Below, one piece after another: positions 6,473 through 21,800 of a stretch of 24,287 bases of DNA. This DNA comes from a virus: positions 1 through 24,287 of IMG/VR virus record IMGVR_UViG_3300025879_000105; one strand, 5' to 3'. Made by a program: the position numbers and the translations under genes. The first letter of the stretch is position 1, and every line of letters begins with the position of its first letter. The notes under the pieces are model-generated. The model did not search any database. It was given only the letters and a program-made list of their open reading frames with translations, and was not told the origin of the DNA.

Positions 6473-6916
6473 TTAATTATTAGGTGGAGAAGGCCATGTA
6501 ACATCTTCTAAAGACCTTTCCTTACCAGTAAGATTAGAAGGTAGATCTCTAAGCTCCTGTCTGTAAGCAGCCCAAATAGAGCTATCTACAGATGCGTCTA
6601 ATACCTGAGTCCAATCACTAGCTACAAGAAAGTTTCTTCTACGCTCTCTAACAGCTGTTAGAAAACTAGAGTTATCAAATTCCCAACTAATACCGTTCCA
6701 TACGTAGTAGTCTCCAGGCTTTTCTGGCATGTCTTCAAACCTAGATCCTGTCCAGCGCTTGTTTTCTATTGCTTCTTTTGTACTAATATCAGGCGGTAGT
6801 ATTTTTACCAGTCGCCCATCTGATACTTGCCCATCTTTGTATATAGAAGAGTCTGATGGTGACACACAAAACTCCACCCTTCCGTCAGTACTATTAATAA
6901 ATGCGTAAGTTATCAT
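6473..6916 (-). CDS. Phage tail assembly chaperone-like protein (147 aa)
   Basis: The C-terminal part (about residues 92-147) reads RRNFLVASDWTQVLDASVD, then WAAYRQELRDLP and a final TWPSPP. This is the signature of the phage tail assembly chaperone family that I know as PF16778, usually found beside tail-fibre genes and thought to help fibres fold or assemble. The N-terminal part is a small beta-rich domain (MITYAFINSTDGRVEFCVSP) followed by a Trp-rich stretch (GDYYVWNGISWEFD). There is no signal peptide. The start overlaps the preceding gene's stop by four bases, so it is translated with the two fibre proteins upstream, its likely clients. It is the last gene of the operon. Confidence 0.8.
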   Translation of the reverse strand: MITYAFINSTDGRVEFCVSPSDSSIYKDGQVSDGRLVKILPPDISTKEAIENKRWTGSRFEDMPEKPGDYYVWNGISWEFDNSSFLTAVRERRRNFLVASDWTQVLDASVDSSIWAAYRQELRDLPSNLTGKERSLEDVTWPSPPNN

Positions 6917-7623
6917 AACGTAATTCCTTGAGTATCTATAATTATTGACTTAGCAGCATCATAAACATTACTATAATAGCTATACGTAATACCACCACCT
7001 CCACTAACATTTGAGCTCATAGTATCTTTTATCGTAGCTATACTACCGTCAGTGTTAAATCTTAACATGTAACCACTAGTAGTAAACCTAAATAAAACAC
7101 TGCTTTCTTCTACGCTTTCAGAATTGCTTGGAGCTTGAAATAACGAAGCATAAAGTGTACTACTGCTTTCACTATATGTAGCCCCAGAACCTGCTAACAA
7201 AGCTCTAACCCTAGTAGACATAAACTGGTTTGAAAATATAACCTTACCATTAGCGTCATAAACCTCAATTCCATAACCAGAAGTAGCCTTAGGCTTGTCT
7301 GTAGAAACTTCAAATGCTATATAATCAAACTCTTGATTTCCAGGATACGAATATATGTTAAAACCTGCACCATTATTTATAGGCTTACCGTACACTTTTA
7401 CATCTTGAGTAGCATTTTTAGGCTTAACAAAAACTAGTAGAGTGTTGTTTGCATTAATAGTTTGCAAACTAGCGCTACCAAAAGAAAAACTAGTGCCAGT
7501 GTTAGTAGAACTTCCTGTAGTTATAGTACCACTAGCTTTGTACAAGTAGGTTATTCTTCCTGCAGTATTAGTGTCTAATACTACACTACCAGATGCGTTA
7601 TGTGTTTCGAATCCGTATGACAT
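6913..7623 (-). CDS. Tail-fibre tip-like protein with YGxE motif (236 aa)
   Basis: A glycine/serine/threonine-rich, mostly beta protein without signal peptide. It begins MSYGFETHNASGSVVLDTNT and carries a second similar segment at residue 117, YGIEVYDANGKVIFSN. The large fibre encoded just upstream ends in a domain starting YGLEVYGPNNELYLS. These YG-x-E-x-Y/H...N segments suggest a repeated small fold shared between the two proteins. The opening resembles a phage protein family I know as DUF6453, found among fibre genes of Pseudomonas and Vibrio phages. The start lies 2 bases after the fibre's stop. The likely role is part of the receptor-binding complex at a fibre tip (inference). No enzymatic residues are apparent. 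Confidence 0.68.
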   Translation of the reverse strand: MSYGFETHNASGSVVLDTNTAGRITYLYKASGTITTGSSTNTGTSFSFGSASLQTINANNTLLVFVKPKNATQDVKVYGKPINNGAGFNIYSYPGNQEFDYIAFEVSTDKPKATSGYGIEVYDANGKVIFSNQFMSTRVRALLAGSGATYSESSSTLYASLFQAPSNSESVEESSVLFRFTTSGYMLRFNTDGSIATIKDTMSSNVSGGGGITYSYYSNVYDAAKSIIIDTQGITL

Positions 7624-7625
7624 TT

Positions 7626-10600
7626 CTATTCTCCTAGTACCAATACTTCATAATAAATGCTAGTAGTAGAGGCACTTGCCCTAGATATAGTTAAGGTATT
7701 ACCGTTTAGCGCAAAGTTCAAACTAGCTAAGCTTAATGCAGCAGGAGCATTAAGCCAAATCACATTAGTAGGATTACCTATTATAGCTATATCTATAGAC
7801 TGAGTGTTCTGAGGTAAGTACCCTACAAGGTTATCTAAAAAAATAACTAGCTTATCAGTAACACTTAAATACAATTCGTTGTTAGGACCATAAACTTCTA
7901 AACCGTACAAACCTTCTGTAGGAGGGGTTATTATAGAACTCTCTGATGTAGTAACTAATACATCTTTACTAGAAGTACCTTCATCATCATCTGTAGCAGT
8001 CACCCTAAAAACTAGTGCGCCAGCCTCATTTGGTGAGGTAAAGGTTGTGCTTGCTGTAGCAGCTGCTGTGTCTATACCTGTAGTACTAACGTCAGCTAAA
8101 GTAACATTAGTACCGCTTACTTGCGTTATAGTTATAGCAGATATAGTACCATCGCTGTCTGTTATACCTGTAGCAGAAAGGGTAACAGTTTCCTCACCGA
8201 CAGTAGAGCTAGGGGTTGATATGAATAAGTCTATTACAGGAGTTGCGTTACTTCCTCTAGTAATTGTAAACGATTTATTGGTATCGTACCAAGTAGTACC
8301 ATTACCGCCTGAATCAGTGTCTCTTTTTATTTCTATTTGGTAAGTACCTACACTTCCAGACGTAGGTGTGTCTACTGTTAGTGTAACGTTACCTTTTGCT
8401 GTCGCTGTTACCGAATCCTCTCCAGTAATACGTACAGTTTCATTATCACCTACTCCAGTAATTACAATATCTTGAGTAGTAGTATTAGAGCCAACAGTAT
8501 AGGCAGTAGAAGGAATAGCTACGGAAGTGTTAGGAGCTAAATAGGGTACTGTATAGCTTGCAGAACCAGTAGCAGCGGCTACTGCGTAAGCAGATCTAGC
8601 TTGTGCTTTAAAAGTGTAGGCTGTACCTCTAGACAAGTCTTCAAATATGTAAGAAGAGCCAGTTTGCCAGGCGGTGTAAGTACCTCCATTGTCTTTACTG
8701 AAACGGTATTCACTAGCTCCTGTAGAAGCTGCTGATACTGTTACATCAGCTAAATTAGACGCTGTAGAGGCTGTTGAAACACTAACGATGGGATTAGAAG
8801 GTCGCATAGAACGGGTAAAGCTGTAAATAGCTTGGTAAGTTCCACTACCTCCAATGTTTGTATTTCTTAAAGCTCTTACAGTATAAGTTTTTACGCTACC
8901 TGCAGAGGGTAACTCACTACCGGAAATAAGTATATTACCGTTAGTAGTTCTAGTGCCTGCGTTAGAACCATTATGTAATACTTGATAGCTATGGTTGGTA
9001 TCAGCGCCTGCTATAGTGACGTTAAAACCGCCATCATTGTAAGCTAAAGGATCACTATCAGATACAGAGTAGCTAAACGCTTTAGGCGCTAGGTACGGTA
9101 CTGTGATTGTACTACTACCTACAAGAGATTCTACTATTGCAGACCTAGATTGAACGGAGTAGGTATAAGAGGTTCCACGAGACTGGTCTTCAAAAATATG
9201 AGAAGTAGAAGTTCCCCAATCTGTATAGGTAGTACCATCATTACTAAATCTATACTCTGTAGCACCTGTAGAAGAAGCTGTTACAGTTACGTCAGCTAAA
9301 CTAGCCTCTGTAGCAGCTGTAGAAGTAGTTACAGTTGGTGTACTAGGCCTTACTGACCTTATAAACGTACTCTTTGTTACATAACTACCAGATCCGCCTG
9401 TATCCGTAGTCCTAACAGCTTGGACTGTATAAGTCTTTTGTGCTCCTGGACTAGGCAGCTCTGAAAACTGTACTGCTATATTACCGTCTGTAGTTCTAGT
9501 ACCTGCATTTGCACCATCGTGTAAAACTCTATACGTATGGTTAGCGTCAGCTCCCGATATAGCAACATTGAAACCAGAGTCACTATAGTTAAGAGGGTTT
9601 GATCCAGATACTGTGTAACTATAAGCTAGAGGGGCCAAGTAACCTACTGAATGGTCTTCGGTGTAGTTGCTTGAAGAGTAAGTAGCTTTTCTTCTTGCGT
9701 AGTAGGTTACAGACGTATTCCTAGATTGATCAAACGTAGTACCATTTGCATGCCAAGTAGAGCCATCGTTAGACACCTCTAAAGTACCACCGTAACCTCC
9801 TGAGGCGGTTACAGCTACATCTTCTGTAGCAGAGGCATCCCCATCATTTACAAATGTAATATTAGTAGGATCTGTACAAGCTACAGAATGGTCTTCAGTA
9901 TAATTAGAAGAGTTAAGACTATTTACACCTTCTCTTCTAGTGTAATACGTTACAGCGGTCCCTCTAGTATGGTTAAACTTTGTGCCGTTAGCATGCCAAT
10001 TAGTACCATCGTTAGATACTTTAATTGTACCGCTAGTACCGCCTGAACCCGTTACAGTAACCTGCTCAGTAGCTGAACTGTCGCCGTCATTTACAAACGT
10101 AATGTCTGTAGGGGCAGTAAGGGCAGGTGTGTTTATTACAAAATTTTCAGTACGTTTAGTAACACCGTTTTTACTAAATGTTACTGATACTGTCTGACTA
10201 CCACTGTAAGTATCTGGAGTAACACCTCTAAGTTTTATAGAAGCACCATCGTCTACAGTACCACTATCTCCCCATGCTGAACCGTTATAAAGTTCACCGC
10301 CAGTTACAGAGTAATCTAAAGTCTCCCCTTCACGAAAAGTATCAAAAGTTTGAGCTACAGATTCTGTTGTTGTTGTACCATTACCAGGAGTTACACTTTT
10401 ACTAGAAAAGTTTATGTTAGTAACACCATAAGGGTCTGTTACTGTACCTGATATAGTAAATTTAGTTACATTATTAAGAATAAACGCTGCTGAGTAACTA
10501 GATCCAGTAAAAGAGTTTAGGTAAGACATAAACGTCGAACCTGTAGGGTGTCCGTTATATAAAAAACCAGCATCTGGATTAGCAAGACAATCTGTCTCAG

Positions 10601-11753
10601 TAATAATCCAACCTTTATTTAGATCAACACCCTGAACATTATAGTAAACATTTATCAGGTCATCGTTAAAAATGTTCTGTGTCTTATCGGTAGTACTTCC
10701 GTATATGTTATAAGTAGAACCACCAGAAGAGCTTCCGGTAGAACTGCGAGTAACTGTAAATGAGCTTCCAGCATTTACCCAAGTGTTATCACCATTATTT
10801 GCAGTAGGAACTCGTGCTTGAATAACGTAGGTCCAACTACCAGAAGCAGGCATATCACCTGTTAAGTTAAAAGAGTCTGCTGTACCTGTATAAGTATCAT
10901 ATACAGTGTCTGTACCAGTAGTACGAAGAAGTCTGTAGTCTGTTACACTATTACTGTTTGCGTTTGTTATAGACTTAGTGAATGTACTGTTTGAAGTAGT
11001 AACAGCTCCAGAAGGGCTTTGAGTAATTACAGTATCTGGATTAACTTCTGAGTCTCGAGTAACAGTAAAACTTGTTACGTTTGAAACAGTACCGTCACCA
11101 CCATTCTCCTCAGATACAAAAGCAGTTATGTAGTAAGTAGTCCCAGAGGTAGAAGGGGTGTTATTAATACTAACCCATACACCATCTTGATTTGTAATTG
11201 TTTTGAGTACTGTACCAGAGTAGCCAGTGGACCGTATCTGATAACTAGTGGTGCTGGTGGTGCTTGTTAGTTTGACACTAAAAGAGGAAGAATTAAATAG
11301 TGGTGTGGTTTTAGCTACTGTAATACTTGTGTCTGGAGCTACAGTGTCCTGTATAGCACCATTATCAGTAATATACACTTCTCCTGAGGCTACAGGCTGT
11401 GTAGTGCCGGTACCCCAACTCCATACCAAACCTCCACTAACAACGTAACTAGCGTCTACCCTTTTGTAACTTGTGTCAGTACCTACCTTAAGGTCATACC
11501 AATAAGTGTTGTAAGTATTTGTTTGCTGGAGTTTTAAAGTGTAGGTATTAGAATAAGAATAGCTTATAGAATATAAAGCTGGTATTTTACCAGATAAACC
11601 AGCAGGTGCACTTGTACTGCCACCTAAAGTACCGAAACTAGGGTTGTAGTAATCACTAGCTAAAAACCCTCTGTAGTAAGTAGTAACACCTGTATAAGTG
11701 TTAGTTTCAAACCTATAAGAAGAGCTTAGGGTGTAATTATGGAGAGTTGCCAT
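7626..11753 (-). CDS. Giant tail fibre built of repeated beta domains (1375 aa)
   Basis: Receptor-contacting fibre or appendage protein, very rich in Thr, Ser and Gly. After an N-terminal region (about 1-139) come three sets of internal repeats: two roughly 99-residue units beginning PDTxIT (140 and 239), two roughly 78-residue units (549 and 630) with TFVNDGD and TWHANGT, and two roughly 183-residue units (705 and 887) beginning YLAP. A PKD/cadherin-like domain occupies about 1172-1270 (DSDGTISAITITQVSG, then AGALVFRVTATDDDEG). A C-terminal domain begins YGLEVYGPN at 1283, like that of the following 236-aa protein. There is no signal peptide, which fits virion assembly in the cytoplasm. The stop of the preceding gene touches the start (TAAATG). 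The Ig/FN3-like nature of the repeats is inferred from composition and spacing. Confidence 0.8.
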   Translation of the reverse strand: MATLHNYTLSSSYRFETNTYTGVTTYYRGFLASDYYNPSFGTLGGSTSAPAGLSGKIPALYSISYSYSNTYTLKLQQTNTYNTYWYDLKVGTDTSYKRVDASYVVSGGLVWSWGTGTTQPVASGEVYITDNGAIQDTVAPDTSITVAKTTPLFNSSSFSVKLTSTTSTTSYQIRSTGYSGTVLKTITNQDGVWVSINNTPSTSGTTYYITAFVSEENGGDGTVSNVTSFTVTRDSEVNPDTVITQSPSGAVTTSNSTFTKSITNANSNSVTDYRLLRTTGTDTVYDTYTGTADSFNLTGDMPASGSWTYVIQARVPTANNGDNTWVNAGSSFTVTRSSTGSSSGGSTYNIYGSTTDKTQNIFNDDLINVYYNVQGVDLNKGWIITETDCLANPDAGFLYNGHPTGSTFMSYLNSFTGSSYSAAFILNNVTKFTISGTVTDPYGVTNINFSSKSVTPGNGTTTTESVAQTFDTFREGETLDYSVTGGELYNGSAWGDSGTVDDGASIKLRGVTPDTYSGSQTVSVTFSKNGVTKRTENFVINTPALTAPTDITFVNDGDSSATEQVTVTGSGGTSGTIKVSNDGTNWHANGTKFNHTRGTAVTYYTRREGVNSLNSSNYTEDHSVACTDPTNITFVNDGDASATEDVAVTASGGYGGTLEVSNDGSTWHANGTTFDQSRNTSVTYYARRKATYSSSNYTEDHSVGYLAPLAYSYTVSGSNPLNYSDSGFNVAISGADANHTYRVLHDGANAGTRTTDGNIAVQFSELPSPGAQKTYTVQAVRTTDTGGSGSYVTKSTFIRSVRPSTPTVTTSTAATEASLADVTVTASSTGATEYRFSNDGTTYTDWGTSTSHIFEDQSRGTSYTYSVQSRSAIVESLVGSSTITVPYLAPKAFSYSVSDSDPLAYNDGGFNVTIAGADTNHSYQVLHNGSNAGTRTTNGNILISGSELPSAGSVKTYTVRALRNTNIGGSGTYQAIYSFTRSMRPSNPIVSVSTASTASNLADVTVSAASTGASEYRFSKDNGGTYTAWQTGSSYIFEDLSRGTAYTFKAQARSAYAVAAATGSASYTVPYLAPNTSVAIPSTAYTVGSNTTTQDIVITGVGDNETVRITGEDSVTATAKGNVTLTVDTPTSGSVGTYQIEIKRDTDSGGNGTTWYDTNKSFTITRGSNATPVIDLFISTPSSTVGEETVTLSATGITDSDGTISAITITQVSGTNVTLADVSTTGIDTAAATASTTFTSPNEAGALVFRVTATDDDEGTSSKDVLVTTSESSIITPPTEGLYGLEVYGPNNELYLSVTDKLVIFLDNLVGYLPQNTQSIDIAIIGNPTNVIWLNAPAALSLASLNFALNGNTLTISRASASTTSIYYEVLVLGE
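8544..9641 (-). repeat. Two tandem ~183-residue repeats in the 1375-aa fibre
   Basis: Residues 705-886 and 887-1070 are clearly related. Each runs YLAP, GFNV-I-GAD-NH, GxNAGTRTT, SELPSxG, KTYTV, GGSG, RPSxP, LADVTV, STGAxEYRFS, then IFED-SRGT and a closing V before the next YLAP. Divergence at many positions argues for an old duplication maintained as protein repeats. Confidence 0.8.
9642..10109 (-). repeat. Two tandem ~78-residue repeats in the 1375-aa fibre
   Basis: Residues 549-629 and 630-704 share PTxITFVNDGD, SATE, VSNDG, WHANGT, a stretch ending TYY-RR, and NYTEDHSV. They directly precede the YLAP repeats, so the shaft is a series of duplicated modules of different size. Confidence 0.8.
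10749..11336 (-). repeat. Two ~99-residue PDTxIT repeats near the fibre N-terminus
   Basis: Residues 140-238 and 239 to about 335 each begin PDTxIT, pass through a serine/threonine-rich beta stretch, then W-containing and GGDG/NNGDN segments, and end SFTVTR. Similarity is weaker than in the other repeat pairs. Confidence 0.6.
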
Positions 11754-12104
11754 TTACCAAGGAACCCCAATCCCTCTTACTCTAAGAGGATCTTGTTCTT
11801 CACACATAGTAATCGCTTGATTTTCTAATTCACCTACTAAAGTAAGTCCTGTTACAGGGTTAGGTTCTTGCATATTAATCAGTGCTTGCTGTACCCAGCT
11901 AATTACTTTAGTCTCAGTCAGCTCTGCATAAGGCACAAACTCTTCTAGGTCTTCTACATCTAGTTGCACACTGCCCCACGTATATCCCATATGACCATCT
12001 TCGTCTGTAGCTTCTACCCAAAAATGTACGTTTTTAGCAACTTTTTCATTACCATTAAGGTTCTGTATCCACTCAATATTAATGATTTTCCATACTATGT
12101 TCAT
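11754..12104 (-). CDS. DUF7936-like small protein, copy 2 (116 aa)
   Basis: A 116-residue protein beginning MNIVWKIINIEWIQ, with VHFWVEATDEDGHMGYTWGS, FVPYAELTETKVISWVQQAL and a GVPW end. This matches in order the protein encoded at 18438-18824, and both sit next to a giant fibre gene. The pattern resembles a family I know from cyanophages (DUF7936-like), found among structural genes, function unknown. Overlap with the preceding glycosyltransferase (ATGA) and direct contact with the fibre start (TAAATG) imply coupled expression. A fibre-associated or tail-tip accessory role is an inference from position. No catalytic residues are evident. Confidence 0.68.
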   Translation of the reverse strand: MNIVWKIINIEWIQNLNGNEKVAKNVHFWVEATDEDGHMGYTWGSVQLDVEDLEEFVPYAELTETKVISWVQQALINMQEPNPVTGLTLVGELENQAITMCEEQDPLRVRGIGVPW

Positions 12105-12892
12105 TTCAGTACCTTAAAACTTTTAGTTTGTTTATTTACGTAATACGGAGCTCCACACTCAGCAAAATCCGTATTTTTATAGTCCAGTTTGCACAGATTA
12201 TGCATTTTAGCATGACCTTCGTCAATTAGGTCTATCCAAGTTCTACCATTAAGCCAAGTGCTTGGTAGCAAATGAGCTTCTCTTGTACCATTTACACATG
12301 AGCTATAGACTTGATACGACCTGTAACCTTTGTCTATTACTCTACCACAAAAGTTAGTGTCTTCACCATAAACAAGTCCAAACCCTTCTTCATAAACAAA
12401 GTTAGTATTAAAAAATATTTCGTCTTTGTACCACTTTCTAAAGTTTTTTACTAAAAACAAACCAGTTATGGCATTAGAACCATACCTAAACCTATGGTAC
12501 TTACTGTCGCTATAATCTATTTTTAAAAGCTCTTCTTGTACAACAGAGATTAGATCTCCTATGTCTTTTGATCTAGCGGTGTCAATGATGTCGTCACCCC
12601 TAACTATAAAAGTATCGTCGTCAAGAATAATGCAGTAGTCGTCATCTGTACTGTAGAAATGGTTTAAGGCGATGTTTCTAGCCTGCCCTGGCGGAAATTG
12701 TAAGTCTGACTTTATCCAAGATACACTGCTAAAGTACTTGTAGTAATCTTCTTCCCATTGCATAGCAATAATACATACAGAAAGATCTTTAGACTCACAC
12801 CAACTAGCTACTTCTTTTAACAGTTCTATACGCTCTTTACTAAAAGACTTATCTCCTAGCCAAGAAATTATATAAGCAGTTGTAAACTTCAT
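12101..12892 (-). CDS. GT-A fold glycosyltransferase (263 aa)
   Basis: Probably transfers a sugar from a nucleotide-sugar donor. From the start at 12892 the protein begins MKFTTAYIISWLGDKSFSKE, has GQARNIALNHFY at 69-80, and ILDDDTF at 89-95 with a DxD-type metal/nucleotide-sugar site (91-93). It also has a GEDTNFCGRV segment (176-185), where E-D commonly supplies the catalytic base in GT2-like enzymes. I chose this start because an AGG site lies 7 bases before it and it avoids a 38-base overlap. A start at 12940 would add 16 residues. The gene sits inside the fibre operon, so possible substrates are the phage fibres or host surface sugars, but I cannot tell which. Host glycan modification to block superinfection is another option. 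Confidence 0.8.
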   Translation of the reverse strand: MKFTTAYIISWLGDKSFSKERIELLKEVASWCESKDLSVCIIAMQWEEDYYKYFSSVSWIKSDLQFPPGQARNIALNHFYSTDDDYCIILDDDTFIVRGDDIIDTARSKDIGDLISVVQEELLKIDYSDSKYHRFRYGSNAITGLFLVKNFRKWYKDEIFFNTNFVYEEGFGLVYGEDTNFCGRVIDKGYRSYQVYSSCVNGTREAHLLPSTWLNGRTWIDLIDEGHAKMHNLCKLDYKNTDFAECGAPYYVNKQTKSFKVLK

Positions 12893-12902
12893 AACAAAGC
12901 CT

Positions 12903-13323: not shown

Positions 13324-13830
13324 TTAGTTTGCTAAAGGGTTGTTAAGAGCTCTTTGCACTTTTTCTGTTAATCGTTTTTCTAACTCTTTTAGTTCCCTAT
13401 CGTTGTTTTCCCTTAGACGTTGCAACTGAGTATCATAGTTTTCTTGAAGTTGATTACGCTTGTCTTCAAAACGCTCATTAGCTTTGTCAATCATGTTACG
13501 AACGTCTTCTTCAGTTTCTCGTACCATATCTTCTACACGATCTGCTTGTTTTTCTATAGCTATAATATCATCCCGCAAACCAGACTTTATGTCTCTTGTG
13601 TACTCTATCGCCTCATCTAGCTTAGTCAGTACTAAAACGTTTTGAGCTTTAATCTCTCCTACATCAATGTTTTGTACTATTTCTTTCATGTCCATGTAGT
13701 CTTTGTAGAACTCAAAAACTCCCCAAGAACCGGCTCCTAGAGTAGAAAGGGCTGTAAGAAAAGCAAATGCTTTGCCTCCAGTAAACGACAGTCCACCAAA
13801 CTCAATAGTAGTTTTCTCTTCTTCAGCCAT
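13324..13830 (-). CDS. Membrane-anchored coiled-coil protein, function unknown (168 aa)
   Basis: One likely membrane helix at about residues 16-42 (TGGKAFAFLTALSTLGAGSW) is followed by a long charged coiled coil from about 60 to 160 (DDIIAIEKQADRVEDMVRET and ERFEDKRNQLQENYDTQLQR). There is no cleavable signal and no cysteine, which suits a type II inner-membrane protein, cytoplasmic N-terminus first (MAEEEKTT). Similar proteins occur in marine phage lysis/structural regions as far as I recall. Candidates are an accessory of the lysis cassette or a membrane-located assembly factor. It is the last gene of the operon begun at 18036 and follows the EF-hand protein by 8 bases. Confidence 0.65.
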   Translation of the reverse strand: MAEEEKTTIEFGGLSFTGGKAFAFLTALSTLGAGSWGVFEFYKDYMDMKEIVQNIDVGEIKAQNVLVLTKLDEAIEYTRDIKSGLRDDIIAIEKQADRVEDMVRETEEDVRNMIDKANERFEDKRNQLQENYDTQLQRLRENNDRELKELEKRLTEKVQRALNNPLAN

Positions 13831-13838
13831 AGTATTTC

Positions 13839-14177
13839 CTATTTAGCTTTGCCTTTTAAAGCATCTGCGCCAAAAAACGCAGAAACTAGTACAGCAATAG
13901 ACGCAAAATATGTAGGGGCTATGTCTGCAATAAGTTCTGCAGCTTTATCTAAGCCTAATAAAGATGTAATAGCTATACCTATTGGGTATACCAGCAAGCC
14001 TACTAAAGAAAACCAAGCCATCTTACGTATAGCATCCCTTTGTGCATCGTTATCTTCTAGTTCCTTACGTTTAAACTCTAAGTGCATCTCCATTTCTTCT
14101 TTAGAAATATGCCCATCACCGTTAACGTCAGCACCAGATACTGCATCTGAATCGATTGTTACTTTGTTATCTTCCAT
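13839..14177 (-). CDS. Holin-like membrane protein with an EF-hand (112 aa)
   Basis: The N-terminal part holds a textbook EF-hand loop, DVNGDGHISKEE at residues 17-28, with oxygen ligands D17, N19, D21, S25 and the closing E28. A helix of charged residues follows (EFKRKELEDNDAQRDAIRKM), then two hydrophobic helices, about 50-74 (WFSLVGLLVYPIGIAITSLL) and 84-108 (APTYFASIAVLVSAFFGADA). Two-helix small membrane proteins in a lysis operon are usually candidate holins, which form the inner-membrane hole that releases lysozyme. The EF-hand could make it calcium-responsive, an inference. The ATG at 14177 follows the preceding stop by 8 bases. The soluble domain would face the cytoplasm if there is no signal peptide, and none is seen. 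Confidence 0.68.
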   Translation of the reverse strand: MEDNKVTIDSDAVSGADVNGDGHISKEEMEMHLEFKRKELEDNDAQRDAIRKMAWFSLVGLLVYPIGIAITSLLGLDKAAELIADIAPTYFASIAVLVSAFFGADALKGKAK

Positions 14178-14185
14178 TGTTACCT

Positions 14186-14593
14186 CTAGTTTTGAAAATT
14201 ATTCTGAGAGTTCATACGCCTAAGAGCATCTAGTTCTTGCTGAAGCTTTAAAACTTCTAGGCGCTTTACACGTAGTTCTAACTGATACAAGGAGTTACAG
14301 TTAATTCTTTCTTTAGGCTTGTCTAGTGGGATAATTATCCTAGCATAAACACCTACATCCTTTGTACTGTTCATGTCGGGGTTACTACCAAACACGGAAC
14401 CGTTGTTTACTATTCCTGTTACACCAAATTCTAGTTGTGTAGCACCACCAATAGCGTTTTTACAGTCTAAGTTACCTGATCTAATACTGTCTTGTCCGTA
14501 TGTACTAGGGCTAGATGGTAACGCAAGGTTCAAAGAACTAGAGTCTGCCATAGCTATGCCGCACATAAAGAATAAAAGTACTAGTTTTTTCAT
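14186..14593 (-). CDS. Secreted protein with SLNLALPSSPSTYG motif, unknown function (135 aa)
   Basis: A signal peptide (MKKLVLLFFMCGIAMA, cleavage probably before DSSS) is followed by SLNLALPSSPSTYGQDSIRS, a LDCKNAIGGATQLEFGVTG segment, and DVGVYARIIIPLDK. The end is a helical, charged section, NSLYQLELRVKRLEVLKLQQ. Two mature cysteines (LDC and INC) could form one disulfide. The motif series is familiar to me from marine phages, always as a hypothetical exported protein. It should reach the periplasm. It is the last of five signal-peptide proteins in a row and overlaps nothing. Whether it stays in the cell envelope or becomes part of the virion is unknown. Confidence 0.7.
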   Translation of the reverse strand: MKKLVLLFFMCGIAMADSSSLNLALPSSPSTYGQDSIRSGNLDCKNAIGGATQLEFGVTGIVNNGSVFGSNPDMNSTKDVGVYARIIIPLDKPKERINCNSLYQLELRVKRLEVLKLQQELDALRRMNSQNNFQN

Positions 14594-14594
14594 T

Positions 14595-14981
14595 TTACTT
14601 AGCCTTAGAACATATGCGAGAGGCTACTGCAGTAAGAAACTTAATATTTTTACGTAGCTTAGATTTTGAGCATATGTAAACAGCTTTGTTTACAGCATCA
14701 GACCTAATGTAAATATCTATATTTACTTCACTTAAGTAGTCTACCTTCACTATTCTATATAAAGAAGTAAATGGTATAGGGTTAAAGTCGGCGTCAAACA
14801 CGCCAATTTCATAATACTTTATGTCATTTCTTCTATTGTAAACATTTACCTTGGTCCTGTAGACGTTATCTACATGAGAAGGTACCATTTTAAAATACGT
14901 AGGTGTCATCTCATGGCTTGCAGCGTTCCATGAAAACGCTACAATTACCATAAAAACACCAACAGCTACTAGCTTAGCCAT
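14595..14981 (-). CDS. Secreted Ig-like protein, fimbrial-chaperone-like (128 aa)
   Basis: After a signal peptide (about 1-20, MAKLVAVGVFMVIVAFSWNA) the protein reads MTPTYFKMVPSHVDNVYRTK, VNVYNRRNDIKYYEIGVFDA, then RIVKVDYLSEVNIDIYIR. That alternation of beta strands with a RIV-type strand looks like the first Ig domain of a PapD-type pilus chaperone. It ends in two ICSK segments (C104, C124), likely a disulfide. It is about half the size of a full PapD chaperone and would have only one domain. The start codon overlaps the preceding pilin-like gene's stop (TAATG), so the two are probably made together. The chaperone call is from pattern only and should be tested by structure prediction. Confidence 0.68.
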   Translation of the reverse strand: MAKLVAVGVFMVIVAFSWNAASHEMTPTYFKMVPSHVDNVYRTKVNVYNRRNDIKYYEIGVFDADFNPIPFTSLYRIVKVDYLSEVNIDIYIRSDAVNKAVYICSKSKLRKNIKFLTAVASRICSKAK

Positions 14982-15484
14982 TACTTAGCAATACACTCTG
15001 CTGTTACAAGCGCAGTGTAATCCCCACCTGGGAATGCTTTATCCCCACCTAGGGCTACTTTTGAAGATGTTTCAAACCAAGTAGATCCTGTAGCAATTAG
15101 GTCATAACGATCTAGCATGCCTAACTCTACTTTATTTGTCTCATACTCTCCCATACCTGTAGCATCTGATACTGTTTTTACTGTAGTATCTCCTTCCCAT
15201 GTCATAACTTCGTTAATGATAGGACTAGTAGAAAACTCTTGAGGAGCAGTAATTTCTGCATAGTAAGAATCTGCTAAAGTAACATCAAAACGTATCACAA
15301 CAGGGTCTCCACCATCTTCAGCAGCAGTAGATAATGTATACGCATTTGGGTTACCATAAGTACCTGCCATATCTGTTTGGATAATGCAGCGAGACTCTAC
15401 AAAAGCGTGAATAGGTGCAGTTTCTGCCAGTACATTTAAACTAGCTAAAGCTCCTAACATAACAGCGCTTAATTTTTTAAACAT
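14981..15484 (-). CDS. Secreted beta-rich protein with two terminal cysteines, pilin-like (167 aa)
   Basis: A signal peptide (MFKKLSAVMLGALASLNVLA, then ETAPIHA) precedes a beta-rich domain of about 145 residues. It contains one cysteine near the start of the mature protein (C33, SRCIIQTD) and one near the end (C164, VTAECIAK). Many fimbrial subunits and spore-coat-U-like proteins have this pattern of alternating polar and hydrophobic strands with a cysteine near each end. The mature N-terminus does not show a clear donor strand. A phage-encoded periplasmic or surface protein follows from the signal peptide. The adjacent gene may be its chaperone. The role is not established. Confidence 0.65.
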   Translation of the reverse strand: MFKKLSAVMLGALASLNVLAETAPIHAFVESRCIIQTDMAGTYGNPNAYTLSTAAEDGGDPVVIRFDVTLADSYYAEITAPQEFSTSPIINEVMTWEGDTTVKTVSDATGMGEYETNKVELGMLDRYDLIATGSTWFETSSKVALGGDKAFPGGDYTALVTAECIAK

Positions 15485-15501
15485 TTCTATCTCCTCTACG
15501 A

Positions 15502-16410
15502 CTAGTTGCCATATTGCATACTAACCATTTTTTCATGTAGTACCTGTTGTGCTAGACCGTTTCTAAGGCCTTTATAACTATCAGGTAGTTGTTTGTCTTG
15601 TATAGACAGTTCTTCTTTGTAAGTACCACCATCAATAGATGTACTGTAATAAGCATTCATCCTAGTCGCAGTGTTAACTGAATCTAGCATTTGTGCTTGA
15701 GCAAAAGAGTTAGCAAACAAAAGATTCGTATTGGCTACGGCTAAAGCTTTTTCCAAACGTTCTTTGCTATCTAGTTTTTCTTCTGCTTCTCTTTTCTCTT
15801 TTTCTTCTTCGGTTTCTTTCTCTTCTTCTTCAAGACTATCATCATCAGGAGAGTACTGTGTATCATCTGCATGCTCATCAGCATCATAAACGTCGTACTC
15901 TACTTGCACAGGTTCTGGTATAGGTACTTTGTAACCTGGACATGAAGGACTATACTGTGGGTCATAACAAGGATCTACTCTGTAGGTATACGCAACATTA
16001 GCATTTTCTACAGAACCGTTACCATCAACTTCAATAGACCCTTTACCCCATACCTCTTTAGGTAAGTTCATAACAGGTACAGCTTTATTAATCTCTGTGT
16101 TGTCTAGAGAGCCCGGTAACCAACTATCAGTTTCTCTAAACACATATCCTTCACCTAAAGCGTTTTCGTTCTGTACAGAAACATCTACACGGTCTTCTGT
16201 TGACTTACGTATATTGTAAGAGTATATAACATTCTGAACTGTAAGACCTGGAGGAGCAGGAAACACATTTCCCATATCCCACACCAGGTTGTTATCTACT
16301 ACAGCGTTACCAGTAGTACCATAGTAGGGTACTACAGAATTAGAGTAAGAGTAACAAGGCAGCAAGAGCGCCAATACTAAAAGCACCCTTTTCAGTTTTA
16401 CTAAGTTCAT
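15502..16410 (-). CDS. Secreted protein with acidic coiled-coil region, unknown function (302 aa)
   Basis: A signal peptide (MNLVKLKRVLLVLALLLPCY, cleavage near SYS-N) is followed by a beta-rich domain of about 120 residues (GTTGNAVVDNNLVWDMGNVF, VIYSYNIRKSTEDRVDVSVQ) and a short cysteine-containing stretch (DPCYDPQYSPSCPGYK). Then come an acidic, charged coiled-coil segment of about 190-230 (EEEEKETEEEKEKREAEEKL) and a helical end with GLRNGLAQQVLHEKMVSMQY. The first 71 bases of the gene overlap the end of the upstream gene in another frame, so this signal peptide and the upstream C-terminal membrane helix are written in the same DNA. The family recurs in marine phages as I recall, but no function is known. 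Confidence 0.65.
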   Translation of the reverse strand: MNLVKLKRVLLVLALLLPCYSYSNSVVPYYGTTGNAVVDNNLVWDMGNVFPAPPGLTVQNVIYSYNIRKSTEDRVDVSVQNENALGEGYVFRETDSWLPGSLDNTEINKAVPVMNLPKEVWGKGSIEVDGNGSVENANVAYTYRVDPCYDPQYSPSCPGYKVPIPEPVQVEYDVYDADEHADDTQYSPDDDSLEEEEKETEEEKEKREAEEKLDSKERLEKALAVANTNLLFANSFAQAQMLDSVNTATRMNAYYSTSIDGGTYKEELSIQDKQLPDSYKGLRNGLAQQVLHEKMVSMQYGN

Positions 16411-16897
16411 CAGATTTCTTTAACTCTTCTTCAGTTTGTTCTACATGGCTTTCCCAAGCTAGCTGTGCTTCAGGTCCTATTGTCCCCATATAAGGACAAG
16501 GAGTACCTGCATGCATCATAGCATCAAAAACTTTTTTGTCTTGGCACATTGTACTTACGGCTGCGACTTTCATACCCATGTCATACAACACTTTAGCGTT
16601 TTTAAGACGAACACAGTTCTCTTCTGTAAAAGTAGTACCTGCGCTAATACCTAGTATCTGTGTTTGCACTGCACCTGCTACGCCAATAGTACACAAGTCG
16701 CTGTTAGAGTTACTGCCAATCTGAGGAGCAATAGCAGATGGGGGTGGCTGCTTAATAGTAGTAGTCATTTGCCCTTGAGTAGTTATAGTACTGTCATTTT
16801 TAGAATCAGTACGTATAACGTCTGTGTCTTCCTGTGCAAGACTTAAACCACTAAAAGCGGTTAGTACTAGTAAAATAGTAATACGTGCCCACATCAT
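16340..16897 (-). CDS. Secreted, C-terminally membrane-anchored Cys protein (185 aa)
   Basis: A signal peptide (MMWARITILLVLTAFSGLSLA, then QED) is followed by a threonine-rich region, a PPPSAIAPQIGSNSNSDLC segment, then GVAGAVQTQILGISAGTTF, and DMGMKVAAVSTMCQDKKVFD. The end is hydrophobic (about 170-185, GAFSIGALAALLLLL). Four mature cysteines (69, 95, 118, 134) probably form two disulfides in the periplasm. The PPPSAI...SNDLCTxGVAGAVQTQILG series is one I recognise from several marine phages, where it is uncharacterised. It would be held in the inner membrane by its C-terminal helix. It is the first of the five secreted proteins and starts 12 bases after the lysozyme stop. Its last 71 bases also encode the signal peptide of the next protein. 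Confidence 0.72.
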   Translation of the reverse strand: MMWARITILLVLTAFSGLSLAQEDTDVIRTDSKNDSTITTQGQMTTTIKQPPPSAIAPQIGSNSNSDLCTIGVAGAVQTQILGISAGTTFTEENCVRLKNAKVLYDMGMKVAAVSTMCQDKKVFDAMMHAGTPCPYMGTIGPEAQLAWESHVEQTEEELKKSDELSKTEKGAFSIGALAALLLLL

Positions 16898-16909: not shown

Positions 16910-17353
16910 CTAGAGGTTCTCTAGCCTAGTCATTAGTCTTTCAGCACGATTGCCTACTTGACGATACCAAATACTGTCTCTACCTTCGGGAGCTGCTTCT
17001 GCATACTCACCAGCAATAAGCTTAGCGTTAAAGTTTTTAAACTTACTTAAACGAGGACGACCTAGGTTAAATAACATGTTAACTAGTACCTCTTGCACCT
17101 CACCAGGAAAACTTTCCCAGGCTTCTTGATACAATACACAGCACTCATCAATAGCAGTCTGTAGATCTTTATCAAAGCACTCACGAACTCGTTCTTCAGT
17201 TACAGGCGTTCCTACAGGCTGACCATGCTCTGGGTCTGACTCTAAAACTAGGTGTCCTACACCAAATGTTGGGTAGCCTAAGTGGTCTTCATAAATCTCG
17301 TAAACTACGCCTTCATCAATCTTTAACTGTTCGTACACTGCTTGTTTGTTCAT
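16910..17353 (-). CDS. T4-type lysozyme, GH24 endolysin (147 aa)
   Basis: Cuts the glycan backbone of peptidoglycan at the end of infection. The active-site stretch IDEGVVYEIYEDHLGYPTFG lines up with T4 lysozyme: E14 (T4 E11), D23 (T4 D20) and T29 (T4 T26) are present, followed by GVGH. The second half has the helical FNLGR...LSKFKNFN and DSIWYRQVGNRAERL segments typical of the fold. The length is close to T4 lysozyme (164 aa). There is no signal peptide, so release should depend on a holin, with the EF-hand protein further along the operon the best candidate. The start overlaps the o-spanin gene by 38 bases. An AAAGG site lies about 10 bases before ATG 17353. The enzyme family call is firm. 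Confidence 0.93.
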   Translation of the reverse strand: MNKQAVYEQLKIDEGVVYEIYEDHLGYPTFGVGHLVLESDPEHGQPVGTPVTEERVRECFDKDLQTAIDECCVLYQEAWESFPGEVQEVLVNMLFNLGRPRLSKFKNFNAKLIAGEYAEAAPEGRDSIWYRQVGNRAERLMTRLENL

Positions 17354-17708
17354 TGGTGGTTACCTTTCTGTAATAAACAACTACTTCTTGTAGTTCGTTA
17401 ATATAGCGTTTAATCTCTTGCATGTTATACGCCATAAGCTCATAGTCAGGAACAGACATAGCCAAAAATACTACCTGTCCTTCTTTCTTTTCCAGTTCCT
17501 TTACAAAAGTATCTAGGTTTTTATTAGATACTACGTACCAATAAGGATCTTTTAAATCAATCGCCCTTGGCATTATTGGTTGCACTATCTTTCTTTCCAC
17601 CGGCTTTGTTACTACTTTCACTTCCACCGGCTTCTTTGTCATTAAGCTGCAACCCGTCGTCAAGAGAATCGATAATACGGCTGTCATTTTCAATACTGTC
17701 GAAAACAT
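17316..17708 (-). CDS. Outer-membrane spanin lipoprotein, Rz1-like (130 aa)
   Basis: Outer subunit of the spanin pair that disrupts the outer membrane in the last step of lysis. Starting at 17708 (AAAGGA 8 bases upstream), the protein is MFSTVLKMTAVLSILLTTGC, with a lipobox (LTTGC) and lipidated cysteine C20. A periplasmic domain follows, with VEVKVVTKPVERKIVQPIMP, LKDPYWYVVSNKNLDTFVKE and DYELMAYNMQEIKRYINELQ. A start at 17738 would add 10 residues but moves the n-region before the signal. It begins inside the i-spanin gene, overlapping it by 152 bases in a different frame. At 130 residues it is longer than lambda Rz1, which is 60 aa as a precursor, and it has no proline-rich region, so it may be a distinct class. 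Confidence 0.75.
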   Translation of the reverse strand: MFSTVLKMTAVLSILLTTGCSLMTKKPVEVKVVTKPVERKIVQPIMPRAIDLKDPYWYVVSNKNLDTFVKELEKKEGQVVFLAMSVPDYELMAYNMQEIKRYINELQEVVVYYRKVTTNEQTSSVRTVKD

Positions 17709-18036
17709 TTTTAGTTCCTTTGTTAACTCTTTTTTCAATTAAACCTGGCTTTGCCGCAGCTAGCCTAGTTAGGTTATGTCTTTTAAAGATATCTAGGTAC
17801 CTATTCATATCTTCTTGTATTTCTTGGTTTCGTAACTGAAGTGACGTAAGACTTTGTGTCTGCAGTTCAAAATCGTCTTGTAAAGCTTTTAAGGCTTTTT
17901 GTTGTTCCTCAAACTTAAATGTGTAAGCCTGATTAAGACGTGTAAGCTCTTTAAGCTCAGCTTGTGTGTTTGTGTAGTAAAAGTACACTAATGGACTTAC
18001 AGTAATTAAAACGCCAGCTAAAACTTTTGCAATCAT
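17557..18036 (-). CDS. Inner-membrane spanin, Rz-like (159 aa)
   Basis: Inner subunit of the spanin complex. Residues 1-22 (MIAKVLAGVLITVSPLVYFY) are an uncleaved N-terminal membrane anchor. A coiled coil of about 25-85 follows (ELKELTRLNQAYTFKFEEQQ and LQTQSLTSLQLRNQEIQEDM), and the C-terminal periplasmic part contains RHNLTRLAAAKPGLIEKRVN and a hydrophilic end. The HxLTxLAxxKPGLIExRxN series is one I associate with spanin-like proteins of marine T4-like phages. The lipoprotein partner starts inside the end of this gene in another frame, a standard layout for spanin pairs. It is the first gene behind the minus-strand promoter at 18084-18112 and thus the first gene of the lysis operon. Confidence 0.78.
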   Translation of the reverse strand: MIAKVLAGVLITVSPLVYFYYTNTQAELKELTRLNQAYTFKFEEQQKALKALQDDFELQTQSLTSLQLRNQEIQEDMNRYLDIFKRHNLTRLAAAKPGLIEKRVNKGTKNVFDSIENDSRIIDSLDDGLQLNDKEAGGSESSNKAGGKKDSATNNAKGD

Positions 18037-18066: not shown

Positions 18067-18095
18067 TTGATAATTAATGACACATTATATACAAT
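18067..18095 (+). promoter_or_regulatory. Plus-strand promoter for the DUF6447-like gene
   Basis: -35 TTGATA (18067-18072), a 17-base spacer and -10 TACAAT (18090-18095), each one base from consensus. The start site would be near 18102, with AAGGA (18125-18129) preceding ATG 18139. Its -10 abuts the -10 of the opposing promoter (18084-18089), so the two polymerase sites overlap. Confidence 0.65.
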
Positions 18096-18112
18096 TATGA
18101 GCGTGATTTAAA
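18084..18112 (-). promoter_or_regulatory. Minus-strand promoter for the spanin/lysis operon
   Basis: On the minus strand: -35 TTTAAA (18112-18107), a 17-base spacer, and -10 TATAAT (18089-18084). The -10 is perfect, the -35 moderate. Its spacing to ATG 18036 is about 48 bases. It overlaps the divergent plus promoter, which suggests mutual exclusion or shared control. Confidence 0.6.
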
Positions 18113-18138: not shown

Positions 18139-18387
18139 ATGGAAAACCAAGAACCACAAACTATCTTTATCGATGATCAAGAATACGTTGTTGATGATCT
18201 ACCTGAAAATGCTAAATACTGCCTTATGCAGGTACAAGATTTACAACAACAAGCTCAAGCAGCTCGTGCACGAGTCGATCAGTTACTAATGGCTGAGCAA
18301 GGCTTTGTTGCTGCAATGAAAGAAGAAATTGCAAAAAGTGAAGAAGAAACTTCAGAAACTACCTTAGCGGACAAAATTATTAGTTAG
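18139..18387 (+). CDS. DUF6447-like small protein, only plus-strand gene (82 aa)
   Basis: An 82-residue protein: MENQEPQTIFIDDQEYVVDD at the start, then LPENAKYCLMQVQDLQQQAQ, AARARVDQLLMAEQGFVAAM, and an acidic C-terminus. The I-x-DGxEYxxDDLxxxAK...L...A.....L.....A...AL pattern, with a small N-terminal beta segment followed by a helical hairpin, is the signature I know as DUF6447, found in marine phages near tail-fibre genes, function unknown. Promoter and ribosome site are good (AAGGA, 9 bases before ATG), and a bidirectional terminator follows at once. The gene therefore forms its own transcription unit, which is unusual in this window and suggests timing or regulation different from its neighbours. 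Confidence 0.78.
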   Translation: MENQEPQTIFIDDQEYVVDDLPENAKYCLMQVQDLQQQAQAARARVDQLLMAEQGFVAAMKEEIAKSEEETSETTLADKIIS

Positions 18388-18406: not shown

Positions 18407-18436
18407 AAAAAAAAGGGGCTTATTGCCCCTTTTTTT
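18407..18436. terminator. Bidirectional Rho-independent terminator
   Basis: AAAAAAAAGGGGC-TTATT-GCCCCTTTTTTT: a GGGGC/GCCCC stem (18415-18419 and 18425-18429) flanked by A8 and T7, working in both directions. It ends the plus-strand gene at 18387 and the minus-strand gene whose stop is at 18438. Confidence 0.92.
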
Positions 18437-18437
18437 G

Positions 18438-18824
18438 TTACTCCGCTGCCGGTTCTGCAGGTGTTTCTTCTTCTACAGGTGCCCATGGCATAGTAGCTTC
18501 TGATACTGCGAGCTCATCAATTTGACGTTGAATGCGCTCTAATACGTGGTCTAAGTAACTATCTACTACAATAGACTTAATCCAACCTAAGACAACTTCT
18601 TCAGTTAACGCATCAAACTGTTGGAATTGCTCTTCAGACAGGTTTGCTGCCGAAAACGGTGTAGCTCCTGAGAAGTTACCTTCGTTACCATCAGCGTCTG
18701 TGTAAGATGCTTTCCAATAAGTTTGGCAAACAGCATTAGGTAATACAATACCATCGCCATTTACTTCGTTTTTAGTTTTAAGTCCAGTTACTTCCCAGAC
18801 TAAATCAGATTTTGCAATCGTCAT
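18438..18824 (-). CDS. DUF7936-like small protein, copy 1 (128 aa)
   Basis: A 128-residue protein beginning MTIAKSDLVWEVTGLKTKNE, with TYWKASYTDADGNEGNFSGA, ALTEEVVLGWIKSIVVDSYL, a short helix and then MPWAP before an acidic alanine/proline tail. The order TD-x-DG-x-x-G, LTE-x-x-V-x-x-W, and a final P-W matches the 116-aa protein at 11754-12104. Both adjoin giant fibre genes and are probably paralogues. It follows the 1749-aa fibre gene after a hairpin-containing gap of 50 bases, with an AAGGAGA site before ATG 18824. The family looks like the cyanophage DUF7936 group. A fibre-linked role is an inference. Confidence 0.7.
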   Translation of the reverse strand: MTIAKSDLVWEVTGLKTKNEVNGDGIVLPNAVCQTYWKASYTDADGNEGNFSGATPFSAANLSEEQFQQFDALTEEVVLGWIKSIVVDSYLDHVLERIQRQIDELAVSEATMPWAPVEEETPAEPAAE

Positions 18825-18874: not shown

Positions 18875-21800
18875 TTATTGTTCTAGTAAACTCAATCGAG
18901 TTTCTAAATCTTCTATCTTAGCTAATGCTTCTTGTAGCGAAGCGGTTAGTAGTGGAACTAATTTACTGTGGTCAACACTTTGATGTATCGGTTTACCATG
19001 ATGGTCTACAGCATCCTTCTCACCAACAACAGCTTCTGGGACTACTTCAGCTACTTCGTGAGCAATGAAACCATCAACGGTCACATCTGAGTACTCAATG
19101 AAGTTAAAGCGTTTAGGTTGTAGTTGATTAAGTCTATCACTAGCATTTGACAAACTAATTACATTTTCCTTCAAGCGATAATCTGAAGACGTACCATACA
19201 CCATAGTTCCGTAAGAGCGATAGATACTACCGTATTGAGTATCTATATAATTCTTAAAGGTCATATAAGTGTACCCGGCGGTACTAGTGTTTTCCTTAAC
19301 TTTAATCTTAGCCATTACACTTTCTGACGCAGAGTCAGTATAGTAAGCAGTATTAACATAATCATAATAGATAGGAAAATTAGCAGCAGCGTACGCATCG
19401 TAGGACCTAGCACCTGCGCCATCGAACCTGACAGTCTTATTAAAGTAAAACTCTCCTCTGTCTGTTTGGAAGTGGCAGTAGGTAGCGTTCATAGGTCCAA
19501 CATCTAGGTAGCCACTTGGTGTTTGTAACCTGTGTGCACCAGATACATTCGGGTTCCAATAATAGCTTGTGTTATCTTTATCATAATAAATAGGAACTCT
19601 TATATCACCTTTAACCCAAGCGTTACCTGCGGCACCCGTTACTTCAAACGTAGTGTCCCATCCATCAGAATGGAATCGAATAGAATCACTAGACGACGTG
19701 TGAAAACACAAAGCATTACGACCAAACACTGAGCGTGAAGTACCAGAAGTACCAATGCCGTGGTTGTTGCTACCACCATCAACATCAATAGCTCTCCAGT
19801 TTTCAGAACCACCGTTGTTAACTATAATATTCGATGTGCCATTACCTCGGTGTGGCATTTGAATAAGTAGCATGTTAGAAGTACTAGCAGGGTCTACGTA
19901 GTAACCAGTGTTGTTACGGTCGTAGTAAGTTTCAAAGTACGTATTACCTGTACCTGCTACATGACCACTTTCACCTGATAGGTATACACGAGCGGTACCT
20001 GCGGAAGATACATACATACCCCAACCACTAAAACCATTACCGCTAATAAACGAAGCATTAGAGTGAGAGTACCCAATGCCGTACATGTTATTCAAATCAG
20101 CATCATTAGGATTGTAGCTAGAACCTATTGTGTATATTGGGTTTGTCTTGGCACTGTTACCACCAACACTATTATAGCTCCCGACTAAATGACCTGTATT
20201 ATGTGAACGTCTACCTAAATACTTAACAAAAGATGTGCTCGTAGGGTCACAGTAATAGCTAGTGTCGTTGCTATCGTAGAAGATAGGGGCACGACTAGAG
20301 CCGGGAGATAACGTGTAAGAATCAAATACCTGAAACTCCACATTGTCATTACACCGTAACTCTAATGGGTCAGTTCCGGTTTGAACACGCACAGCCCATT
20401 GGCCGTCGTTATCTAGTAGACCGAACCTACCACCACCATCACCGTAGATGTAACCATGCAGTGTAGTGTTTCCATCATAGAACTTAATACCACCTGAACC
20501 TCCATCACCCCACTTGTAGTTAAGGTAGTTGTCGTTACCATCATCATAAAAACGAACATTATCGTTAAAATGAAGTTGGTTGACGTAGTTAATATCTTTA
20601 TTGTGCAAATGTAGATGACGACCCATATGCAAATAAGTAGTATCGCTAGTGCTGTGATACATAATAGTACTATTAGTACCTGCGTGACGAGAGTACCAGT
20701 AGTGTGTATAACTGGAGTCCCAATACCAGTAAGAACCATAACCGCCTGAGCTATCCTCACCAAAGTAAAAATGGGAATCGCCAGAGTCAGTAGCGTATAG
20801 CTCCAAAATATCATTTATCTTGGTCTTATCGCCATTGCCATTGCCTAGGGTCGTTGTTCCATTAACAGTAAGGTTATCTACAGTACCATTGCGGAAACGA
20901 TAGTCACCACTAGAGGAACCAAAGTAATACGCTGTGTTATTACGGTCGTATACTATGTTTGCTCTAAGGTCATTTACATAACTAGTGCCGGCAGGATCTA
21001 CAACATAAGCATTATCGTTACTATCATAGTAAGCTGTAGCATATAGATTACCTGCATTAGTTTGAGTATCATACGAAACACTCATTCGAAGATTAGTTTG
21101 TACCTTCTTACTAACACTGGGTTCAGAAGCATTACCTATAGTGGTTACTCTGTTTTGAGAACCACCCCCTGCATCTCTTACATGAACTTGGAAACTATTC
21201 CAGTAAGAAATACGTGGCCACCAGAAACATAGGTACCCGTTGTACTCCATAGCTTTGATGTAAGTAAGTCGTAAATCACCATAGTTAATACCCGAATGGT
21301 TAATAATAGTGTTGCTGTAGAGGTATCCCTGAGCCTTAAATGCAAAGGGTGGTTCACCTGAGTAAGACTTACCTGTAACCTCGATAACATAAGAAGCACC
21401 ACTAGCCCCTGTTGCAGGTATATTAGTTTGAACTAGCGTACCATTAACAAAGTCAGAACCAGAGTGTCGTGCTGTAATCATCTGATTACCAAGGTTATCT
21501 TCAACATCCCCTTCTACTTTTAGACCATTTGTAGGAGCAGTTGTACCTACTAGGTTTTCACCTATAGTAGTACCGCCATGGACGTGTAGCTTCTTACCGG
21601 CTACAGGAGCCCCTCCACCACCAAGAGCGAAAGTTCTTGTGGCCCCATAGTGCCATATAAAATCTGTAGCCGGGCTATTAGCATCTTGGAATCCAATACC
21701 TGACCAAGAAGTACTGCTACCATCTAAGATTAACTGCGCGTCATCTACATGGGTTAGTTTAAGTTTAGCCATTACTGACTGTGATGCAGGGTCAGTATAA

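Follow-up and report, generated by a model that had tools for sequence, protein, structure and literature searches.

We report a block of six genes, called A, B, C, D, E and G, on the minus strand of a 24,287-base virus fragment from IMG/VR (IMGVR_UViG_3300025879_000105; this whole stretch is referred to as the window). The block is real, widespread and conserved, and the open-access literature searched holds no description of it, which is no proof of absence. Because one order has been kept across unrelated phage types, we regard it as selected as a unit with a job that matters in the sea. As to this job, we tentatively favour, at somewhat less than an even chance, a late cassette that sends a multi-protein complex into the periplasm for envelope disruption or egress at the end of infection.

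A conserved block of six genes

Gene A (185 residues; 16340..16897, minus strand like all genes of the block) encodes a signal peptide, a disordered stretch rich in Thr, Ser and Pro, a domain with four Cys residues and a hydrophobic C-terminal tail. In B (302 residues; 15502..16410) the signal peptide is followed by a conserved N-terminal region rich in Trp, Gly and Tyr, an acidic linker and a conserved C-terminus ending in LHxxMVxxQY. C (167 residues; 14981..15484) joins a signal peptide to a predicted beta sandwich that is weakly pilin-like, D (128 residues; 14595..14981) joins one to a single seven-stranded immunoglobulin (Ig)-like domain, and E (135 residues; 14186..14593) carries a signal peptide, two hydrophobic-alternating stretches and a charged, helix-like segment at its C-terminus. 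These five open reading frames (ORFs), located between the lysozyme gene and a gene for a two-helix membrane protein, are exactly as an earlier sequence-only reading of the window had given them. The set of five is real but incomplete, as that reading overlooked the constant sixth member G (168 residues; 13324..13830) with its N-terminal membrane helix, long coiled coil and C-terminus NPLAN. The two-helix gene F (112 residues; 13839..14177, minus strand) is an optional member; its EF-hand-like loop scores below the cut-off of Pfam. The topology expected of the holin-like gene named earlier is present in F, but no holin family matched, so that the label describes topology only.

Gene A corresponds to phrog_20531 (E 5.9e-15) and gene E to phrog_37374 (E 5e-9), both without a known function in PHROG, and all PHROG matches of A, D and E are to such families. 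B had no match in PHROG, Pfam or NCBIfam, and searches of Pfam, NCBIfam and PDB sequences gave nothing useful for any of A to E. A search of viral contigs with A matched at least 600 stretches.

Seven scans of viral contigs, combined with iterative models over 407 sources, led to 217 distinct C genes. The family models were built iteratively from these same loci (E limit 1e-4, pVp-1 included), and the gene models of the loci are mechanical ORFs. Each locus scan keeps the best 80, and the loci therefore lean towards the window's own type. Since several loci share one contig, we counted by distinct C gene; the bases are the 217 distinct C genes, 190 distinct C DNA sequences with complete A to E, and 178 distinct C proteins.

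The complete block A-B-C-D-E-G is found on one strand and in one order in 181 of the 217 distinct C relatives, which bears out the linkage of the five genes in related phages; its absence would have counted against the sequence-only reading. Almost all incomplete blocks (35 of 36) stop at the end of the sequence, and the remaining one (L118) lacks G within 965 bases of room. Loci fetched with A give the same picture for its closest relatives, the best 80 being kept: ABCDEG is the order in 48 of the 49 that have 3.5 kb of room after A, the exception being ABBBCDEG. Among 78 distinct loci with sufficient flanks, all contain G and 25 have F near the block. The linkage of the block is far beyond chance. 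Among the 190 distinct loci C overlaps D in 114 and D overlaps E in 137, the ORF starts being mechanical. The distances between relatives correlate over all gene pairs (0.50–0.80); a special co-evolution of C and D was considered and rejected, as their correlation of 0.71 is not the highest. In some relatives SNase-like and DUF1353 genes are inserted between E and G (L123:6370-7455, L138:6382-7639).

Export signals and a nested gene start

A simple n/h/c rule flags Sec signals on all five window proteins A to E. In distinct complete homologues it is positive for 187 of 189 A, 196 of 201 B, 191 of 192 C, 180 of 193 D and 182 of 187 E proteins, compared with 369 of 1724 background ORFs of at least 100 residues. 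The proposal that the set is exported is thus supported for the window and across the homologues. One must keep in mind that the rule cannot tell signal peptides from anchors, because Rz1, a lipoprotein, and F and G, both membrane proteins, are flagged as well. A lipobox is not conserved in A to E, where 6 to 17 of about 190 to 200 members have one.

The retention of these signals bears on the possibility that the products are virion components, which would either join released virions after export or be minor structural proteins with an N-terminal hydrophobic stretch that does not act as a signal. The position in a late region beside structural genes would suit such a role, and the search of the open-access literature found no virion proteomics for these phages. 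However, signal peptides are kept in 93–99% of the members, and virion proteins assembled in the cytoplasm need none. We consider this explanation quite improbable.

Judged by substitution ratios, A to E are under purifying selection: the ratio of nonsynonymous to synonymous rates (dN/dS) against the close relative L092 is 0.07 for A, 0.21 for B, 0.14 for C, 0.24 for D and 0.05 for E. The value for G is 0.02, with dS saturated.

Genes A and B overlap by 71 bases (16340..16410, minus strand), so that the hydrophobic tail of A and the signal peptide of B are read from the same DNA in different frames. This nesting recurs in 206 of 207 distinct A/B pairs, and the relative frame is always the same. 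In the SAR11 phage HTVC115P the open frame upstream of the annotated start of gp53 likewise encodes a hydrophobic stretch inside gp54; the annotated GTG start of gp53 (L004:5476) seems too late. The earlier description of A as a Cys-rich protein anchored by a C-terminal helix is supported by its four Cys residues and hydrophobic C-terminus, but has to be qualified by the second use of the tail DNA. The annotated start of E also seems too late in Vibrio phages (L410:7402-7689, L411, L412:7411-7698), where the sequence ahead of E, overlapping the end of D, reads like a signal peptide and contains TTG or CTG codons.

Predicted folds of C and D

AF2 models were made for C and D. D is modelled with a pLDDT of 91.5 and a pTM of 0.77, and its best match in Foldseek is the F4 chaperone FaeE (E 2.8e-4), followed by SfaE, DraB and FimC. 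VIA places residues 22–128 of D on domain 1 of FimC, Caf1M, SafB, PapD and CsuC with Z 9.5–10.7, in agreement with the earlier suggestion that this protein looks like one Ig domain of a pilus chaperone. Domains that are not chaperones fit equally well, namely the Ig domain of CsxA (Z 10.8) and MSP domains (Z up to 10.2), and the match is therefore one of fold class and not of ancestry. According to the model the fold of D is of the PapD/MSP Ig class, and a chaperone function may be inferred from it. Cys104 and Cys124 are invariant, and position 126 is Lys or Arg in 54 of 54 proteins. Lys126 would fall on Lys112 of PapD, provided that the alignment, which pairs 128 with 114 at its end, has no gaps there; in the same putative register Tyr29 (52 of 54) would take the place of Arg8 of PapD.

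The model of C (pLDDT 91.0, pTM 0.78) resembles pilins less clearly. FimF, CfaB, the pilin domain of PapG and CsuA/B are among the top Foldseek matches, the best having E 4.4e-3, and staphylococcal adhesins score like the pilins. VIA gave adhesin and integrin domains with Z 7.5 or less, with no Z of 8 or above and no chaperone-usher pilin among the 50 matches listed; a library of viral structures gave no match at E 0.001 or better. Cys33 and Cys164 are invariant, in a disulphide pattern that is presumably unlike that of classical pilins. The sequence-only reading had called C pilin-like because of the Cys residues near both ends; these residues stand, the models permit a weak likeness of fold, and sequence homology was lost upon trimming. 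Comparing full-length profiles with a global-alignment flag had suggested kinship of C and D with Escherichia coli pilins and chaperones (77% and E 2.4e-6 for C), and this candidate vanished with trimmed signal peptides and local alignment (0.4–0.7% for C, 0.9% for D), for which reason we claim no such homology. A match of E to Saf pilins in the PDB (E 0.01) was also set aside, as the score adds up the tandem copies of a fused construct, each of which alone gives about 1, and we regard it as a lead at most. Kinship with spore-coat U, which had also been proposed, found no Pfam match in 38 members.

These folds are the basis for a further explanation, in which C polymerises with D as its chaperone, the other proteins export or anchor the product, and infected cells carry a fibre or matrix made by the phage. 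The chaperone-like D and the weakly pilin-like C speak for it, and curli export modules are carried and exchanged by marine podo- and myophages (PMC9599517). Against it, 47 records including four whole Vibrio phages contained no usher (PF00577; the E. coli control was positive, and IMG/VR records may be fragments), and the pilus proposed earlier is not sustained. The 47 records likewise contained no CsgG pore (PF03783; controls positive) and no two-domain chaperone (PapD_N, PF00345), D itself lacking the second domain. Should Cys33 and Cys164 of C be bonded, the first strand would be tied to the last, which may shut the groove. We regard a surface fibre as unlikely, though less so than a place in the virion.

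Phages that carry the block

The window belongs to an N4-like marine phage, judging from its portal gene (phrog_1216, E 5e-202), a gene like N4 gp57, and Alteromonas phage AD45-P1 as the nearest named relative (8% of the window at 77.6% identity). None of A to E or G occurs in the stretch of AD45-P1 that was examined, and insertion or loss within the N4-like phages therefore took place. In 49 contigs searched for portal types, eight had an N4-type and 11 a T4-type portal without overlap between the two sets, and a weak T7-type match in one contig overlapped an N4-type one; 30 contigs were left without an assigned type. The T4-type set includes a 328-kb contig. Scanning genome contigs with E added three loci in metagenome bins (L407, L408, L409) with the whole block and a lipase gene; the bins are named Rhodobacteraceae and Bacteroidetes, and the copies are probably phage contigs in the bins.

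Parts of the block also occur apart. C, D and E were each found in 179 Vibrio phage records, from phages of about 58 to 128 kb, with no A, B or G next to them. In trimmed profile comparisons C matches its Vibrio counterpart well (95.3%, E 2e-8) and D weakly (8.4%), the pairing of D being carried by synteny. Conversely, SAR11 and roseobacter phages, among others, have A without C-D-E; a different exported acidic protein comes next, and most of these phages then carry a G-like gene. The row in SAR11 phage HTVC023P starts with A and the acidic protein, which the B model does not match, continues with a small gene and a weak match to G (0.003), and ends with an endolysin of the peptidase-M15 type. 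As C-D-E stands alone in Vibrio phages and A occurs elsewhere without it, the block looks like a combination of two modules, A-B-G and C-D-E.

Genomic setting and possible function

It is a puzzle why a pair of proteins, one chaperone-like and one pilin-like, should be exported by a lytic phage shortly before the host cell is killed. In the favoured reading of envelope disruption or egress D would bind C and fold it in the periplasm; we infer this from their translationally linked position, the chaperone-like fold, and Lys126 at the place of PapD Lys112. C, D and E would then associate with A and B in the space between the outer membrane and the inner membrane, the latter reached by the tail of A and the helix of G. 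Acting late, beside endolysin, spanins and, in T4-like relatives, a lipase, the complex would let the envelope give way or virions come free. A more doubtful elaboration is that D, as a single-domain chaperone without usher, completes the pilin-like C and docks it on a periplasm-spanning frame of A, B and G, that the assembly so formed opens or remodels the outer membrane from its inner side late in infection, and that the block was passed whole between N4-like and T4-like marine phages, including the one with the 328-kb contig.

The layout of the window is consistent with a role in egress. On its minus strand the order is tail fibre, hairpin, promoter-like site, Rz, Rz1, lysozyme, A, B, C, D, E, F and G, so that the block shares one operon with Rz, Rz1 and lysozyme after the terminator-like hairpin, and the topology of G is that of an inner-membrane spanin. 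A gene for one of several types of endolysin, for Rz/Rz1, for a holin-like protein, for F or for a class-3 lipase is near the block in 43 of the 78 distinct loci. In T4-like relatives a class-3 lipase gene follows E or G (L100:7646-8353, L103:6448-7179, L105:6362-7075, L144:6967-7677, L135:7598-8329). Of the distinct lipase homologues 25 of 26 are on the same strand at most 2 kb downstream of E, PF01764 was found in all four such genes scanned (E 5e-21 to 2e-25), and a membrane protein of about 100 residues usually comes after the lipase (four examples). A lipase beside exported and membrane-anchored proteins suggests membrane damage, and we therefore rank egress first.

Several observations weigh against this ranking. 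The window already has complete Rz/Rz1 spanins, so a second breaker of the outer membrane would be unneeded, and known lytic domains are absent from all members of the block. A recognised endolysin or Rz is nearby in 17 of the 78 loci and no recognised lysis-type gene in 31, so that the place in a lysis operon emphasised by the sequence-only reading applies to the window and some relatives and fails as a rule; lysis linkage is common among the relatives, not general. On T4-like contigs the block often forms an operon by itself, flanked by genes of the opposite strand, and tens of kb separate it from the PF00959 lysozyme in those contigs that showed one. C-D-E of Vibrio phage K251 g3 is situated among head-tail genes.

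The occurrence of the block far from lysis genes also speaks for superinfection exclusion or receptor masking, in which the exported proteins would obstruct the receptor or outer-membrane port used by the phage itself, so that progeny are not lost to infected cells or debris. A precedent is Llp of phage T5, which acts from the periplasm and whose gene is adjacent to and downstream of the receptor-binding gene pb5 (PMC9586334). The window block is about 2 kb from a tail-fibre gene, and in all four Vibrio phage regions examined a gene of phrog_10818 (function unknown) directly precedes C-D-E. On the other side, known exclusion proteins are one small lipoprotein, while here there are six genes without a conserved lipobox, and in the window the terminator-like hairpin stands between the fibre gene and the operon. 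The upstream neighbours of the block vary (portal, major head protein, cytidyltransferase, halogenase) and a tail-fibre gene like that of the window is near 11 of 78 loci, so tail-fibre linkage was rejected as a general rule. Exclusion is in our view possible but doubtful; we keep it close to egress because of the blocks apart from lysis genes and the T5 Llp precedent. The halogenase-like neighbour is a phage gene of the tryptophan-halogenase type close upstream of the block (L178:391-1971).

Other features of the window

The tail-fibre gene (1749 residues; 18875-24124, minus strand) is separated from the lysis and export operon by the terminator-like hairpin (18408..18436, minus strand; 12 pairs and a T run). 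A promoter-like site before Rz (18084..18112, minus strand) has 10 of 12 matches, the count of such sites in the region being not above that of shuffles. Rz (17557..18036; phrog_739, E 1.2e-13) resembles inner-membrane spanins, Rz1 (17316..17738; phrog_812, E 4.2e-14) is an outer-membrane spanin-like lipoprotein with the motif LTTGC, and the lysozyme (16910..17353; PF00959, E 2.9e-9) is the endolysin, all three on the minus strand. The RNA elements searched for were not found.

Opposite the operon an 82-residue ORF on the plus strand (18139-18387) has a homologue in L092 (3127-3351) at the same place and on the opposite strand. The region 6473-12902 contains a 1375-residue gene without PHROG match, a tail-fibre assembly gene and a weak glucosyltransferase match; it is missing from L092, where the portal gene comes directly after gene H. 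The proteins of 11754-12104 and 18438-18824 match one model and may be paralogues, each beside a different fibre gene.

Comparison with known systems

We class the block with the phage-borne export modules and not with chaperone-usher systems, spanins or curli, the hallmarks of which were absent or uncertain. With chaperone-usher systems it would share the fold of chaperone domain 1 in D with a basic residue at the putative place of PapD Lys112, and C as a predicted beta sandwich encoded beside D, both probably exported. The differences are the one domain of D compared with two, the lack of an usher and of any Pfam or profile match, and, in the assumed register, Tyr29 instead of an Arg at the place of Arg8.

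G resembles the inner-membrane spanins in its membrane helix at the N-terminus and its coiled coil, it often belongs to the same operon, and A and B are partly nested genes as Rz and Rz1 are. G has no spanin match in PHROG, bona fide Rz and Rz1 are also present in the window, and A to E are without a conserved lipobox. If the egress role is true, the block would be an extra device for the holin-endolysin-spanin scheme.

T5 Llp and Cor are also small phage proteins sent to the periplasm, and in some carriers the block, like them, is downstream of host-recognition genes; they differ from its six genes in being lipoproteins, and no sequence relation tested positive. In the case of an exclusion role, the known single lipoproteins would be joined by a system of several proteins. 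The curli (T8SS) modules of SAR11 phages (PMC9599517) share multi-gene export, a conserved order and the occurrence in marine podo- and myophages, and differ in their protein families and in the CsgG pore that the 47 records lack.

In the Vibrio phages of the pVp-1 type A, B and G are missing beside C-D-E and the genes are annotated as hypothetical; gp077-gp079 are of the same C-D-E families in the same order as in the window, and as such phages are in culture, the question can be addressed in laboratory phage-host pairs.

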